Assembly (NCBI RefSeq): GCF_009766095.1
Contig: NZ_LMUD01000047.1
Coordinates: forward strand, 191,936 to 255,935
DNA: 64,000 bases
Source of the DNA: Granulicella sp. S190
GTDB taxonomy: Bacteria; Acidobacteriota; Terriglobia; Terriglobales; Acidobacteriaceae
Direction of reading: 5' to 3'
The position numbers and the translations under genes are program-made. Shown here piece after piece: positions 4,137 to 62,882 of this stretch. The notes beneath the pieces are model-generated. The model did not search any database. It saw only the letters and a program-made list of their open reading frames with translations, and was not told the DNA's origin. The stretch's first letter is position 1; each line of letters starts with the position of its first letter.

Positions 4137-5258
4137 TCATACGCTCTCCGCCTCCAGCAGCCGCCGCTTCCTCTCCACGCCCCAACGATATCCAGTGATT
4201 GCCCCACCCTTGCCCACCACTCGATGACATGGCACTGCAATCGCAATCGGATTCGCTCCGCAAGCCCCGGCCACCGCACGCGAAGCCGTAGGCGCGCCAA
4301 GCTGCAACGCCACCTCCGAATAACTCCGTGTCTCGCCCCGCGGAATCGCCTGCAGTGCCTTCCACACCCTCTGCTGAAACGCCGTAGCCCTCACATCCAG
4401 CGGAAACGTAGCCGCCAGCGGATGTTCACTTAACTGGCTCGTCACAAACGCAACCGCATCCGCCAACCATCCTGTATTTCCCTTCGCCACCACTAGCTGC
4501 GCCTTCGAGAACTGCTCCCGCAAACCAGCAATCAACTCCTTGTCATCCCTCCCAAACGCAATCGAGCAGATCCCCACATCGGTTGTCGCCACCAGCATCC
4601 GTCCCAGCGGGCTGGCCACCGTGCAATACCGAATCAGCAGCCCTGCGCCTCCCTCACGCATCACGCGAGGCGTCATCCCCAGCGTAGCCGCGCTCTTTTC
4701 ATACAACCTGCTACTCGATCCAAACCCCGCCTCATAGATCGCATCGGTTATCGGAGCCTTCACCTTCTTCGGCTCCCTCACCTTGCTCTTGAACCGCTCC
4801 AGCCGAGCCTCCTTCGCATACTGCCCCGGACTCACCCCCAGCACGCGCTTGAACCCACGCAGAATCGTCAATCGCCCCACGCCCGTAGCCTTCGCCACAT
4901 CGGCCAGCCGCGTCCGCTCCTCCGCGTGATCCTTCAAATACTCCGTCACCGCCGCAATCGCGCCCGCCTGCGGATCGGCCTTCGCCTCCGTCCTATCAGG
5001 CTCACACCGCTTGCAGGCCCTGTATCCCGCAGCCTCGGCCAGAGCCGGGGTAGGGAAGAACGTCACGTTCTTCCGCGACGGCCGCCGGCTCGCACAGCTC
5101 GGCTTGCAATAGACCTTCGTCGACTTCACGGCATACACAAACTGCCCATCCGCGCTCGCATCTCGCCCCAGCACCTGCTGCCACTGCTTGCCGGGAAAGT
5201 AGCTCGGCACCGCCACATCCTTCTTCGCTGCACTCGTCATCGTCATTGTCTCTGTCAT
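4137..5258 (-). CDS. ada: Bifunctional DNA repair methyltransferase / transcriptional activator Ada
   Basis: The 373-residue product repairs alkylated DNA by transferring methyl groups to its own cysteines and activates alkylation-response genes. The N-terminal zinc domain carries the four cysteines C51, C55, C82 and C85 (VYCKPSC and RACKRCEPD); an AraC-type helix-turn-helix follows (RLADVAKATGVGRLTILRGF). The C-terminal methyltransferase domain has the active site AVPCHRVVGKGG with C344. I chose the ATG at 5258 because a GGAGG site lies eight bases before it; an in-frame ATG eleven codons upstream (5291) has weaker support. It is divergent from the secreted hydrolase gene at 5370. Confidence 0.95.
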   Translation of the reverse strand: MTETMTMTSAAKKDVAVPSYFPGKQWQQVLGRDASADGQFVYAVKSTKVYCKPSCASRRPSRKNVTFFPTPALAEAAGYRACKRCEPDRTEAKADPQAGAIAAVTEYLKDHAEERTRLADVAKATGVGRLTILRGFKRVLGVSPGQYAKEARLERFKSKVREPKKVKAPITDAIYEAGFGSSSRLYEKSAATLGMTPRVMREGGAGLLIRYCTVASPLGRMLVATTDVGICSIAFGRDDKELIAGLREQFSKAQLVVAKGNTGWLADAVAFVTSQLSEHPLAATFPLDVRATAFQQRVWKALQAIPRGETRSYSEVALQLGAPTASRAVAGACGANPIAIAVPCHRVVGKGGAITGYRWGVERKRRLLEAESV

Positions 5259-31438: not shown

Positions 31439-31480
31439 AATATTTTAGGCGTAACCCTTTTTGAATGAATATTTTGCAGA
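31439..31480. repeat. Dispersed intergenic repeat, copy B, left part
   Basis: AATATTTTAGGCGTAACCC followed by AATATTTTGCAGA matches the first half of copy A at 27970. The repeat stops at the edge of the insertion element and resumes on its other side at 33943. Confidence 0.65.
31473..31480 (+). repeat. Left target-site duplication of the IS1595-type element
   Basis: TTTGCAGA immediately precedes the left inverted repeat; the identical eight bases follow the right end at 33935-33942. Eight-base duplications are typical of the IS1595 family. Confidence 0.93.
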
Positions 31481-31505
31481 GGTAAGTATCCCCACATGTA
31501 AGGTA
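31481..31505 (+). repeat. Left terminal inverted repeat
   Basis: Starts GGTAAGTATCCC and ends GTAAGGTA; pairs with 33910-33934 at 21 of 25 positions. Confidence 0.9.
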
Positions 31506-31592
31506 CACTCAAAATACCGTCACAGGGCAGCTAAGAGATGTCTTGTAGTCATCTCTATTTTGGCGCTTCTTTGTAGGGTTCAAGACGACAGC

Positions 31593-32420
31593 CTATGGCT
31601 TTTTTCCGATGCATATTCTCAGTATTTCCTCCCCGGGGTCGGGGTCGAGCACTCCTTTTGTGACATTATTTTCTTCCGGAGGAGCGATGCTGGAACCGAT
31701 CATTTGGCTCAAAACAATGCCAGCGCGTAACTTCTGCGACAAAGAAGGAAATGGCTTCACTTGGAGTTCTGCGAGCGATTCTTTTTCGGTGACATGTACC
31801 GCTATCCCCGTATCCAAGCAAGATGGAACCATTTCTCCCTTCTCCCCTGCGGCGAAGACTGTCTTCATTGTCGGAATGCCAATATTCATGCCAGCTGGCT
31901 GTACTCGGATCCAACCAGCATCTTTCAATGCTTGGGCGACGATCACTGAAAACCTATTGGATTCATCATCCATGAATGCATTAATGGTGAAGTCCGTTCC
32001 CTTGAACGGTTTGAGCCCAGTGACTAATTCATCTTTGCGAACAAGAGAACGTGGCGTCTTGATAGCACTCAATTTAGCCTCCGCTGTAGCTTCTCGTTGT
32101 GTTGAGTCTGCTAAGCGTTGCTCTGCATCAGCTAGTCGCGATACCGCATCTGCGGCTTGCTTCTTGGCAGATACGATATCTGACTCGAAAGAGTCTGCTT
32201 CTTTTCTTGCACCAGCCGCCAAGATTGTCGCTACCGCTGAAGATTTAACCGCCTCGCCAGATTTGGTTGACGCGTCTTTGGCGGAAGTATCTGCTGCTCC
32301 TGCGGAGGCTTTGGCTTGGAATGCTGACGTGCCAGCATCGCGCAACAAATCAATGTTTATGGATTGGATATTCTCGTCATCCCTGTTCACGTCCCTGTCT
32401 ATCCAAAACTCTCCAGCCAC
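31593..32420 (-). CDS. Passenger gene, downstream frame: membrane-anchored coiled-coil protein
   Basis: The frame gives 275 residues from a GTG at 32420, but it continues upstream with EKKPVAEHGPYWITFIGLIG and a membrane helix (WITFIGLIGWIIVSVGVAG) and has no ATG, GTG or TTG there before a stop. It overlaps the end of the 91-residue frame at 32486. The most likely product is therefore a fusion made by a -1 shift at the A_AAA_AAC heptamer at 32492-32498, giving about 389 residues. After the helix come an Ala-rich coiled coil (AKDASTKSGEAVKSSAVA, ADSFESDIVSAKKQAADAVS) and a C-terminal alpha/beta domain (TPRSLVRKDELVTGLKPFKG, IVAQALKDAGWIRVQPAG). I recall uncharacterised proteins of this design with one continuous frame. 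Function unknown. Confidence 0.75.
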   Translation of the reverse strand: MAGEFWIDRDVNRDDENIQSINIDLLRDAGTSAFQAKASAGAADTSAKDASTKSGEAVKSSAVATILAAGARKEADSFESDIVSAKKQAADAVSRLADAEQRLADSTQREATAEAKLSAIKTPRSLVRKDELVTGLKPFKGTDFTINAFMDDESNRFSVIVAQALKDAGWIRVQPAGMNIGIPTMKTVFAAGEKGEMVPSCLDTGIAVHVTEKESLAELQVKPFPSLSQKLRAGIVLSQMIGSSIAPPEENNVTKGVLDPDPGEEILRICIGKKP

Positions 32421-32485
32421 TCCAACTGAAACGATGATCCAACCGATCAGTCCGATAAACGTAATCCAGTATGGCCCATGTTCAG

Positions 32486-32761
32486 CTACAGGTTTTTTCT
32501 CAAACGCTTAATGGCATTGGAGATTTCATATACCAGTTCGGGGCCCTCTAATATGACTCCAACAGCGACTAGCTGTGTCACGAACAAAAGATGGGAGAAA
32601 TCAACCTTACGTGCGTTGTCCCATACGTTTCTACTGTCCTCCAAAGCTTTTATTGCTTGGGGAGAAAGCCCATCCATGAGTGAAGCTAAAGACATCAACG
32701 AGGACAACGGGCGAATTAGTTCATTTGATAGACACATGATCGTGCTCACCTTAGTGTTCAT
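32486..32761 (-). CDS. Passenger gene, upstream frame: N-terminal part of the membrane/coiled-coil protein
   Basis: A 91-residue frame with one hydrophobic segment (LLFVTQLVAVGVILEGPELV). It stops at TAG 32486-32488, two codons after the slippery heptamer A_AAA_AAC read in phase. A -1 slip there would join it to the next frame just before that protein's membrane helix. Alternatively a one-base change in the six-A run has split a once continuous gene. Starts at ATG 32761. Lies within the insertion element and is transcribed in the same direction as the transposase. Confidence 0.65.
   Translation of the reverse strand: MNTKVSTIMCLSNELIRPLSSLMSLASLMDGLSPQAIKALEDSRNVWDNARKVDFSHLLFVTQLVAVGVILEGPELVYEISNAIKRLRKNL
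32492..32498 (-). other. Candidate programmed -1 frameshift site A_AAA_AAC
   Basis: On the minus strand the heptamer is positioned exactly in the phase required for tandem -1 slippage from the 91-residue frame, and the shifted frame is the long passenger frame. Programmed -1 shifts on this heptamer are well known in bacterial insertion elements, but usually in the transposase genes. Confidence 0.5.
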
Positions 32762-32833
32762 CGTTGTTATTGCATGGAGGGTTAGGGCCGAATGGCACTA
32801 GGCTATGTGCCATAATCCTAGCTAGGGAATTAT

Positions 32834-33013
32834 ATGAGTCCTTCACCAAAGCTGACCAAAGAAGAGAAGCAGAACGGGAAACGCAAGTTTCTCACCCCTC
32901 TCCCGCAAACGTTGGAGGAGTCGGAGATGCACCCTATCACCGTGGAAATGTTCACACGACTTGTAAAGAAAGCTATTCCGCCTTCGCCACAACCTGATCC
33001 AGCAAAGACTTAA
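32834..33013 (+). CDS. Small passenger gene (59 residues)
   Basis: An ATG at 32834 with AGGGA about five bases upstream opens a 59-codon frame ending TAA 33011-33013. The product begins MSPSPKLTKEEKQNGKRKFL and continues TPLPQTLEESEMHPITVEMF, ending with a Pro-rich tail. It is basic at the start, and the TLEE...MHP.TVE.F pattern looks like a small conserved protein rather than noise. Its last 41 bases overlap, on the opposite strand, the 3' end of the transposase. Unknown function; possibly a regulator or partner carried by this kind of element. Confidence 0.55.
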   Translation: MSPSPKLTKEEKQNGKRKFLTPLPQTLEESEMHPITVEMFTRLVKKAIPPSPQPDPAKT

Positions 33014-33884
33014 ACATCGGCTGGTTATCCATTCGGCGGTTGTAGCGGAACGAGTATTCATCGCAGTAAGACTGCAAATACTTGGTGCTTACCGAGTGGT
33101 ATACGCCTTCGATCCCACGCTTCAATAGGCTCCAGAAGCCTTCAATCGTCTGGGTGTGAATGTGCCCCATCACATAAATGCCAGCCGTATGGTTGATGCG
33201 CTCATGCTTGTAGTTATTGCCCATCCATCGCACGTTATCGTATGAGGAATAGGAGTCCGTGTAGACGGTGCTCTTGGGCAGCACACGCTCTGCGACTATG
33301 GGCATGAGGGTCTTCTCTTTCACATCCGCGACCACGCGAGTGATGACGCGCCCCTTGCGCTCGACAATCCCAAAGATGGGCTGCTTGTCCTTGTACTTGC
33401 CTTCGGTACGCTTGTTGGCGTGCTGGTTCTTTTTCGGTGCGCCGTGAAATGTTTCATCCATCTCAACCGGGCCGGACAGCACGAGGTCTTCCGACATCAG
33501 AGTACGAATCTGTTTGAACATGCGCCATGCCGTCTTGTAGGTGACGCCGCACTCGCGCTGTATCTGCTTTGCGCTGATCCCGCAGCGCGTAGCCGACATG
33601 AGGTACATTGCATAGAACCAGAGCCGCAGGGACGTGCTGGACTTCTCGAATATTGTTCCAGCCATCGGCGAGATGTAGGTTCCACAGTAGTCGCAGGCAT
33701 ACGCCTTTTTGGTGGCGATCCGGTGGTGCTTGCGCTCCACTTTGCAGTAAGAGCAAATAGCAAGTGATCCGGGATAGCGTTGCTCCATCAGCCAATCTAA
33801 GCAAGCATTGTCATCCACGAATTGTTTGTTGAAGTCGTTGATTGTAAAGCGACGTTCGGCGGGAATGGGCTGAGGAATCTTCAT
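32973..33884 (-). CDS. IS1595 family transposase (ISXO2-like)
   Basis: A 303-residue DDE transposase from ATG 33884. An N-terminal zinc ribbon has C44, C47, C64 and C67 (ICSYCKVE and YACDYCGTY), followed by a helix-turn-helix (SAKQIQRECGVTYKTAWRMF). The ISXO2-like catalytic core has D143 (GPVEMDETFHG), D210 (STVYTDSYSSY) and E248 (HTQTIEGFWSLLKRG). All catalytic residues are present, so it is probably active. A TTG seven codons upstream at 33905 is a possible alternative start. The right inverted repeat begins 25 bases before the ATG. Confidence 0.93.
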   Translation of the reverse strand: MKIPQPIPAERRFTINDFNKQFVDDNACLDWLMEQRYPGSLAICSYCKVERKHHRIATKKAYACDYCGTYISPMAGTIFEKSSTSLRLWFYAMYLMSATRCGISAKQIQRECGVTYKTAWRMFKQIRTLMSEDLVLSGPVEMDETFHGAPKKNQHANKRTEGKYKDKQPIFGIVERKGRVITRVVADVKEKTLMPIVAERVLPKSTVYTDSYSSYDNVRWMGNNYKHERINHTAGIYVMGHIHTQTIEGFWSLLKRGIEGVYHSVSTKYLQSYCDEYSFRYNRRMDNQPMFKSLLDQVVAKAE

Positions 33885-33909
33885 GGCAAGACTAGTGTCC
33901 CACAAATAT

Positions 33910-33934
33910 TACCTTACGTCAAGGGATACTTACC
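33910..33934 (-). repeat. Right terminal inverted repeat
   Basis: Read on the minus strand it starts GGTAAGTATCCC and ends GTAAGGTA, matching the left end at 21 of 25 positions. Confidence 0.9.
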
Positions 33935-33942
33935 TTTGCAGA
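33935..33942 (+). repeat. Right target-site duplication
   Basis: TTTGCAGA, identical to 31473-31480. Confidence 0.93.
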
Positions 33943-61844: not shown

Positions 61845-62882
61845 TCAAGGTTTGATCACTTTGGGTGCATCCTGTGTGCATCCGCAGGAGGAACGAAGAA
61901 CCAATTCAACTTTTAAAGTAATTCGGCTGCCCTTTGCCGGCCAGTCTTCTGCTTTCGCTTTGAATTGATTGAAGAGCGCCTCAGCTGCGGTTTTACCGAG
62001 CGCTTCTACAGGCTGGCGAATAACGGTGAGCGGAGGTTGCATCATGTCGGCCATGTCGAAGTCGTCAAAGCCAACAGTCGCAATATCAGTGGGAACGCGA
62101 ACTCCAAGATTGCGTAGAGCGCGAAAGAGGTAACGGCTGATCCGATTGTTTCCCGAGAAGAAAGCTGTCGGTGGGTTTTTTCCCGCAAGCGCGGTTTTGA
62201 CATACTTGAAGACAAGGTCTTCCGAGTCGCAATCGAGGCACTCGCCAGTCTTCAATCCAGCGTCCAAGAGAGCTCGTCGATAGCCTTGATGTCTTGTCCT
62301 GATGGTGAAGAGGTCCGGCCGGTCTCCTAAAAAGAGAATGCGTTTATGGCCGTGCTCAATGAGATGCTGAGTACCAAGTTTTGCGCCTACATGATTATCA
62401 ACCACAACGGAGGAGAACCGGGACCCCTGCAAGGGGCGATCAAAGGAGATGATCGGTATGCGCTGGAAGATCTTGTCGGAAAACCTGGAATTACGCCCGA
62501 CGGAAGGACAAAGAACGAGCCCTTCCACATGCTTTTGCAACATCCACTCTGCCTCGGAAAACTCCGTATCGGGATTTTCGTTGGAGGTTGTAATGATGGT
62601 TGAGTAGCCCTTAGACTGAGCGACTGCGTTGACGTTGTGAGCGCAGATGGCAAAGAAGGGATCGGTCAACGAAGGCACAATGAGACCGATCGACTTTGAC
62701 TTGGCACCACGTAGTCCTCGGGCCATCTCATTGGGTCGATAACCTAGTCGTTCGATCGCTTCGTGTACCCTGCGGGCGGTCTCTGCACTGACATGCACTG
62801 AGCTGTTCAGAACGCGGGAGACTGTCATCGTCCCGACGTCAGCCAACCTAGCGACTTCGATCATCGTTGCTCTTTTGCTCAT
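61845..62882 (-). CDS. LacI-family transcriptional regulator
   Basis: A 345-residue regulator. The N-terminal helix-turn-helix reads MIEVARLADVGTMTVSRVLN with hinge helix RLGYRPNEMARGLRG; the periplasmic-binding-protein-like domain follows (SIGLIVPSLTDPFFAICAHN, VGFDDFDMADMMQPPLTVIR). It probably senses a sugar and represses neighbouring genes such as the GH2 glycosidase upstream and the VOC/TolB pair downstream. A candidate operator lies upstream at 63046. Ends in KVELVLRSSCGCT. Confidence 0.94.
   Translation of the reverse strand: MSKRATMIEVARLADVGTMTVSRVLNSSVHVSAETARRVHEAIERLGYRPNEMARGLRGAKSKSIGLIVPSLTDPFFAICAHNVNAVAQSKGYSTIITTSNENPDTEFSEAEWMLQKHVEGLVLCPSVGRNSRFSDKIFQRIPIISFDRPLQGSRFSSVVVDNHVGAKLGTQHLIEHGHKRILFLGDRPDLFTIRTRHQGYRRALLDAGLKTGECLDCDSEDLVFKYVKTALAGKNPPTAFFSGNNRISRYLFRALRNLGVRVPTDIATVGFDDFDMADMMQPPLTVIRQPVEALGKTAAEALFNQFKAKAEDWPAKGSRITLKVELVLRSSCGCTQDAPKVIKP

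Follow-up and report, generated by a model that had tools for sequence, protein, structure and literature searches.

Does a gene carried by an insertion sequence use a programmed -1 ribosomal frameshift, or has it simply been split by the loss or gain of one base? This question is raised by a cargo gene in the window, as we call the whole stretch of 64,000 nt from Granulicella sp. S190 that was analysed here, in which two overlapping reading frames meet at a perfect A_AAA_AAC heptamer. The original prediction had offered two options, programmed frameshifting and an A6 run altered by one base. Of these the one-base change is supported by our analysis and programming is not, as the homologues that span this point cross it in a single frame. 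We assign a probability of roughly 0.86 to the reading that the cargo gene of an IS1595 element of 2,454 bp was broken when the A run changed its length by one base, be it in the genome itself or through an error of sequencing.

To begin with the setting, the gene had been called a passenger, and it indeed lies inside a complete IS1595 element of 2,454 bp (31481-33934) that is flanked by 8-bp target-site duplications. The left copy TTTGCAGA (31473-31480) is identical to the right copy TTTGCAGA read from the sequence at 33935-33942. The left terminal inverted repeat, beginning with GGTAAGTATCC, occupies 31481-31505 on the plus strand and the right one, located by an inverted-repeat search and by reading the sequence, 33910-33934 on the minus strand, both being part of a longer inverted repeat (31475-31505 and 33910-33940) that is 84% complementary over 31 nt. 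Between these ends and on the same strand as the cargo, upstream of it, sits the gene of a 310-aa transposase (32973-33905, minus strand), which shows the Pfam domains PF12762 (DDE_Tnp_IS1595, E 1.6e-41) and PF12760 (IS1595 zinc ribbon, E 1.8e-6) and is named IS1595 by NCBIfam (NF033547, E 2.4e-62). The element is placed in this class by its ISXO2/IS1595-type DDE transposase, which has a zinc ribbon, by its terminal inverted repeats and by an 8-bp duplication, the latter being typical for the IS1595 family. Members of this family can carry passenger genes, and the window element shares with them the transposase domains, the inverted repeats, the 8-bp duplication and the extra gene inside the ends, whereas its cargo gene differs in being frame-broken and in encoding a coiled-coil protein, with a pair of hydrophobic helices, for which no family was found above cut-off in Pfam or NCBIfam and none in PADLOC or the PDB. 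As both flanking octamers are identical, the element is a complete and probably recent insertion. Its G+C content is 0.50 compared with 0.56 for the window, and at the search thresholds used it is the sole copy in its own genome by DNA, by cargo and by transposase. A small convergent ORF of 59 aa (MSPSPKLTKEEKQNGKRKF..., 32834-33013, plus strand) extends into the transposase gene at its 3' end; it has a similar counterpart (MPKLTDEEKQNGKRKLL...) at the same place in a related IS1595 locus (L091, from 3899, plus strand), and similar C-terminal ends seem to be present in L018 and L020.

The cargo gene itself is read on the minus strand. According to the ORF and its translation, its frame-0 part (32486-32761) encodes 91 aa with the first hydrophobic helix and stops with TAG at 32488-32486, and an alternative start at ATG 32737, which is preceded by AAGGTGAG, is possible. 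The heptamer (32492-32498), identified by reading the sequence, marks the frame break and is in phase with frame 0, the codons being AGA AAA AAC followed by one sense codon (CTG) and then the stop. The -1 frame is open from behind the stop at 32510 as far as 31593, and the corresponding part of the gene (31593-32507, 304 codons open) is homologous to single-frame proteins and encodes the second hydrophobic helix, an alanine-rich coiled coil and a C-terminal domain ending in IGKKP. The membrane helices were assigned by eye. Both open frames overlap by 19 nt with the A6 run inside, a read-through from frame 0 into the -1 frame would give a product of 389 aa, and no further disruption is seen over the approximately 1.17 kb of the gene. 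Reading the sequence afresh thus bears out three statements of the original prediction, namely that the 91-residue frame ends two codons after a perfect in-phase A_AAA_AAC (32498-32492, minus strand), that the -1 frame continues into a membrane helix and a coiled coil with a joint product of 389 residues, and that no ATG, GTG or TTG precedes this helix in the -1 frame. The earliest such codon, GTG 32420, comes only where the hydrophobic stretch ends, and upstream of it only ATT, ATC and CTG are available. Starting from this GTG, or from a non-standard codon, the downstream part might be a separate gene, and GTG 32420 would indeed yield a coiled-coil protein of 275 aa, which lacks most of the helix. 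However, the homologues spanning the junction are one polypeptide with both helices, and a simple coupling of termination to re-initiation could not lead into the -1 frame, since the ATG directly past the TAG belongs to frame 0 and is soon followed by another stop, making two separate genes extremely improbable. A 300-codon ORF started by ATG runs antisense to the cargo gene (31609-32511, plus strand), and long antisense ORFs were also seen in L003, L045 and L087; they are probably a by-product of alanine-rich codons.

To take a wider view of the junction, we built a profile of eight rows, including the two parts of the window gene, and searched it in 398 genomes of the family at E 1e-6. Matches were obtained in 33 genomes, the window's own among them, with 38 stretches listed. 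Leaving the window aside, the junction (model position 55) is spanned by 26 stretches from 25 genomes, each of them in one frame and 25 of them stop-free, the exception being one with stops in G178; ten of the 38 fall outside the junction. The window copy appears as two stretches (model positions 3-55 and 55-344) and is the only one split at this place. Weak matches, carried by the helices and the coiled coil, make up many of the 26, and three of the 25 genomes (G119, G022 and G009) contributed rows to the profile; strong matches are those of G022 (430-codon open frame), G119 (372) and G664 (381). Another homologue, from G651 (L088, 2802-3865), is spread over three frames and split at model positions 106 and 197 and not at the window junction; its stretch counts among the 26, and the assembly is 74% complete.

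The pairwise comparisons show the same picture, with homologues that are only about 23-41% identical to the window cargo. The 91-aa frame matches the cargo of L092, a single-frame protein of 382 aa, with 55% identity over 38 aa up to residue 88, from where the -1 frame continues at WIT, and the read-through protein is 33% identical to it over 227 residues. With the single-frame cargo of L087 (375 aa) the identity is 34% over 369 residues covering both helices and the loop, and with that of L091 it is 23% over 230 residues (E 9e-5). Six homologous junctions were read as DNA (L003, L045, L005, L091, L087 and L092), and neither A_AAA_AAC nor a run of six A's is present in any of them. A pattern search placed every AAAAAAC of these six loci away from the junction, and those in L005 (2167) and L045 (4724) lie at the terminal GKKP and out of phase, as worked out by hand from their positions. 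The single-frame homologues across helices and loop suggest that, most likely, the gene was ancestrally in one frame and had a short loop at what is now the break. For programming, the original prediction had looked to a heptamer and a two-frame layout conserved among homologues, and such conservation was not found: all 26 non-window stretches are in one frame and the six junctions lack the heptamer, among homologues of about 23-41% identity. It had also named an outcome that would speak against its idea, a single frame and no slippery site in every homologue, and this is for the most part what we found, with 25 of the 26 stretches stop-free and six junctions without the heptamer.

Searches beyond the family gave little to compare at closer range. 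The cargo query P0002 had no match in plasmids or phages, the 36 pattern matches obtained in viral contigs all failed confirmation, and a scan of genome contigs reduced 105 pattern matches to one locus, L045. Within the own genus (62 genomes) one weak match was obtained besides the window genome, and at class level 5 of 399 genomes had a cargo match at E 1e-8, the window genome included. The element DNA had no match in phages. No close relative of the cargo was thus found in plasmids, phages, viral and genome contigs or at the levels of genus, family and class.

What, then, is to be made of the heptamer? Runs of six or more A's occur 16 times in 24,400 codons (stop-to-stop ORFs of at least 200 codons in six frames, overlapping ORFs counted), and by our own arithmetic the chance of finding one within a given 19-nt overlap is about 0.3-0.4%. 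As chance placement in the overlap is that unlikely, the A6 run is probably tied to the frame break, and both a homopolymer indel and programmed slippage predict A6 at the break. Six of the 16 runs are in phase, close to the one third expected. Heptamers of this kind are common in the window: among ORFs of at least 150 codons it has seven other in-phase A_AAA_AAN sites, including A_AAA_AAG at the cargo's own terminal GKKP (31605) and an A_AAA_AAC mid-ORF at 62181. Phase, direction and the perfect heptamer taken together favour programming over a random indel in the A run by about 6:1 according to our own estimate.

Programmed -1 frameshifting at this site would produce the 389-aa membrane coiled-coil protein next to the 91-aa short form and thereby limit cargo dosage, and limiting of dosage by frameshifting is known for the transposases of several IS families. 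A_AAA_AAC is the frameshift motif of IS1, and the window resembles the transposase frameshifting of IS1 and IS3 in the heptamer class, the two overlapping frames and the -1 direction. It differs from these systems in that the site lies in the cargo and not in the transposase, that site and layout are not conserved in the relatives found and that no stimulator was found. An in-phase X_XXY_YYZ motif in the overlap of two open frames, as expected for a programmed -1 frameshift gene, is present, the heptamer lies two codons before the frame-0 stop with the right direction of shift, and the -1 frame, open for 304 codons, is homologous to real proteins. From the published side, PMC4066793 counts A_AAA_AAC among the motifs chosen for a frameshifting above 0.10% in E. 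coli in the absence of stimulators, and PMC3711429 describes programming as frequent in mobile elements, though in transposases. Against this, PMC5009743 gives A_AAA_AAC as much less shift-prone than A_AAA_AAG in E. coli. The conserved heptamer and two-frame layout of a programmed gene are absent among the distant homologues of about 23-41% identity, with a single frame in all 26 other junction-spanning stretches and no heptamer at the six junctions read. A stimulator, either as a Shine-Dalgarno-like word or as a downstream structure, was not found: none of eight such words occurs within 25 nt upstream of the heptamer, and the 85 nt downstream of it show an ordinary RNA stability (z -0.58, 51 of 200 shuffles as stable) in a comparison of pseudoknot-free folds. 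The missing stimulator is weak evidence because PMC4066793 describes a proven IS case in which no stimulator has been established for A_AAA_AAC either. Programming is unlikely, and equally unlikely is the idea that this IS1595 cargo gene lately gained a working A_AAA_AAC site through a one-base change of the A run that now limits the amount of a membrane protein.

The one-base break that we prefer would proceed from a single-frame gene whose product of roughly 320-430 aa had a pair of hydrophobic helices followed by an alanine-rich coiled coil; most of the close relatives also have a small domain at the C-terminus. The A run, located in the loop between the helices, would then have changed by one base and put the second part out of frame, be it as a real slippage indel or as a sequencing or assembly slip. 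We infer both the direction and the recency of this change. The full protein would now not be made, or only in traces by incidental slippage at the heptamer, which may allow slight residual frameshifting. Single-frame homologues and a break at a homopolymer, as expected for an indel-broken gene, are both found here. In PMC3711429, 4010 pseudogene clusters stand against 146 recoding clusters, and singleton frame transitions in non-orphan genes are regarded as likely indels or sequencing errors. The window gene resembles the indel pseudogenes and singleton frame transitions described there in being a single-copy homopolymer break with relatives that are intact at this place, and it differs from them in the in-phase slippery heptamer that the change has created or left. 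Speaking against the break are the phase and direction of the heptamer and the absence of further disruption in the gene; by inspection, no other obvious split gene is present in the ORF layout of the window either, so that a generally poor assembly is unsupported.

If the mutation fell on a slippery heptamer, the broken gene could also be leaky, with a trace level of cargo that still matters. The same break on an in-phase slippery heptamer speaks for this, and PMC5009743 describes how frameshifting at a low level can compensate for an indel within a run; however, a leaky gene would overlap with the indel explanation and differ from it only in whether the residual product matters, and we regard it as very unlikely. 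A homopolymer at the break would likewise suit a phase-variable switch in which changes of the A-run length turn the cargo on and off. This is hardly credible given that 16 runs of six or more A's lie in large ORFs of the window and yet no other broken gene is evident by inspection, that the six homologous junctions have no A6 run and that contingency tracts are usually longer than six bases.

Regarding the function of the cargo, its sequence combines a pair of hydrophobic helices with an alanine-rich coiled coil and closes with a small conserved C-terminal domain whose last residues are GKKP. Pfam yielded nothing at E 1 for the window cargo and nothing at E 0.01 for six cargo homologues, and NCBIfam gave only TIGR04320 below its cut-off (E 0.026) for the window cargo. 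In PADLOC the only hit was a weak one for L045 (JetC, E 0.0065), with none for the cargo of the window, no sequence match was found in the PDB, and the AlphaFold model of P0002 (two sequences) is of low confidence with a mean pLDDT of 45.5. The sequence features suggest a membrane-anchored coiled-coil protein, and an accessory function for the element or the host is suggested by the repeated presence of the cargo on IS1595-type and IS1 elements.

This repeated presence can be followed through several loci. L091 has an IS1595 transposase (PF12762, E 2.9e-37) followed by a single-frame cargo of 317 aa in the same layout as in the window; its ends were read by eye, with the octamer AATTCATC as flanks at 2774-2781 and 4994-5001 and a third copy of AATTCATC elsewhere in the locus at 1813. 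In L003 (1408-2685), from genome G119, a single-frame cargo of 368 aa lies in a cassette without transposase whose ends are of the IS1595 type (31 nt, 71% complementary) and which is flanked by two copies of the octamer CTTGTGAT; the same genome also has a transposase 61% identical to that of the window. L003 is thus like a mobile insertion cassette (MIC) in having IS1595-type ends and an 8-bp duplication around the cargo without a transposase, a likeness that does not extend to the window copy with its own transposase. In L087 (794-3500), IS1-type ends (22 nt, 95% complementary) enclose the 375-aa cargo together with an IS1-family transposase, and in L092, L045 and L052 the cargo adjoins an IS1-family transposase, the copy in L052 being short (251 aa). 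The repeat finder listed no inverted repeat in L091 and L052 and no end-joining pair in L092. As judged from these sequences, one coiled-coil gene family recurs as cargo on IS1595 elements (window and L091), on the L003 cassette and on IS1 elements. A small ORF (MAKANQVSIPYLDPNVQHVG..., 68 aa in L087, 3024-3230) lies 3' of the IS1-family transposase, an ORF in L092 (from 4546) has the same start by eye, and both look antitoxin-like by eye.

Other IS1595 transposases, 55-64% identical to that of the window (L016-L022, L026, L027 and L029), are followed by varied adjoining genes in a survey that leaves out L023, L028 and L030-L044. These genes encode DUF3800 proteins (L021 and L022), a DUF433 protein (L017) with a DUF5615-like neighbour below the Pfam cut-off, and others without family, several of them convergent. 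The inverted-repeat pattern was not found in L021, and one end with three mismatches was found in L022. As such ends were not found or were one-sided, the genes of these relatives are placed only beside the transposase and are candidate cargo.

If the gene is only split by an indel, it cautions against reading programming into a frame break on the weak evidence of a perfect slippery heptamer, because indels and sequencing slips also fall on homopolymers. If the site did work, frameshifting would act on the cargo of a transposon and the dosage of the cargo, not of the transposase, would be controlled. The recurrence of this gene family on IS1595 elements, on an IS1595-type cassette and on IS1 elements suggests a selection for carriage of the cargo by mobile elements, and this may outweigh the question of the frame.
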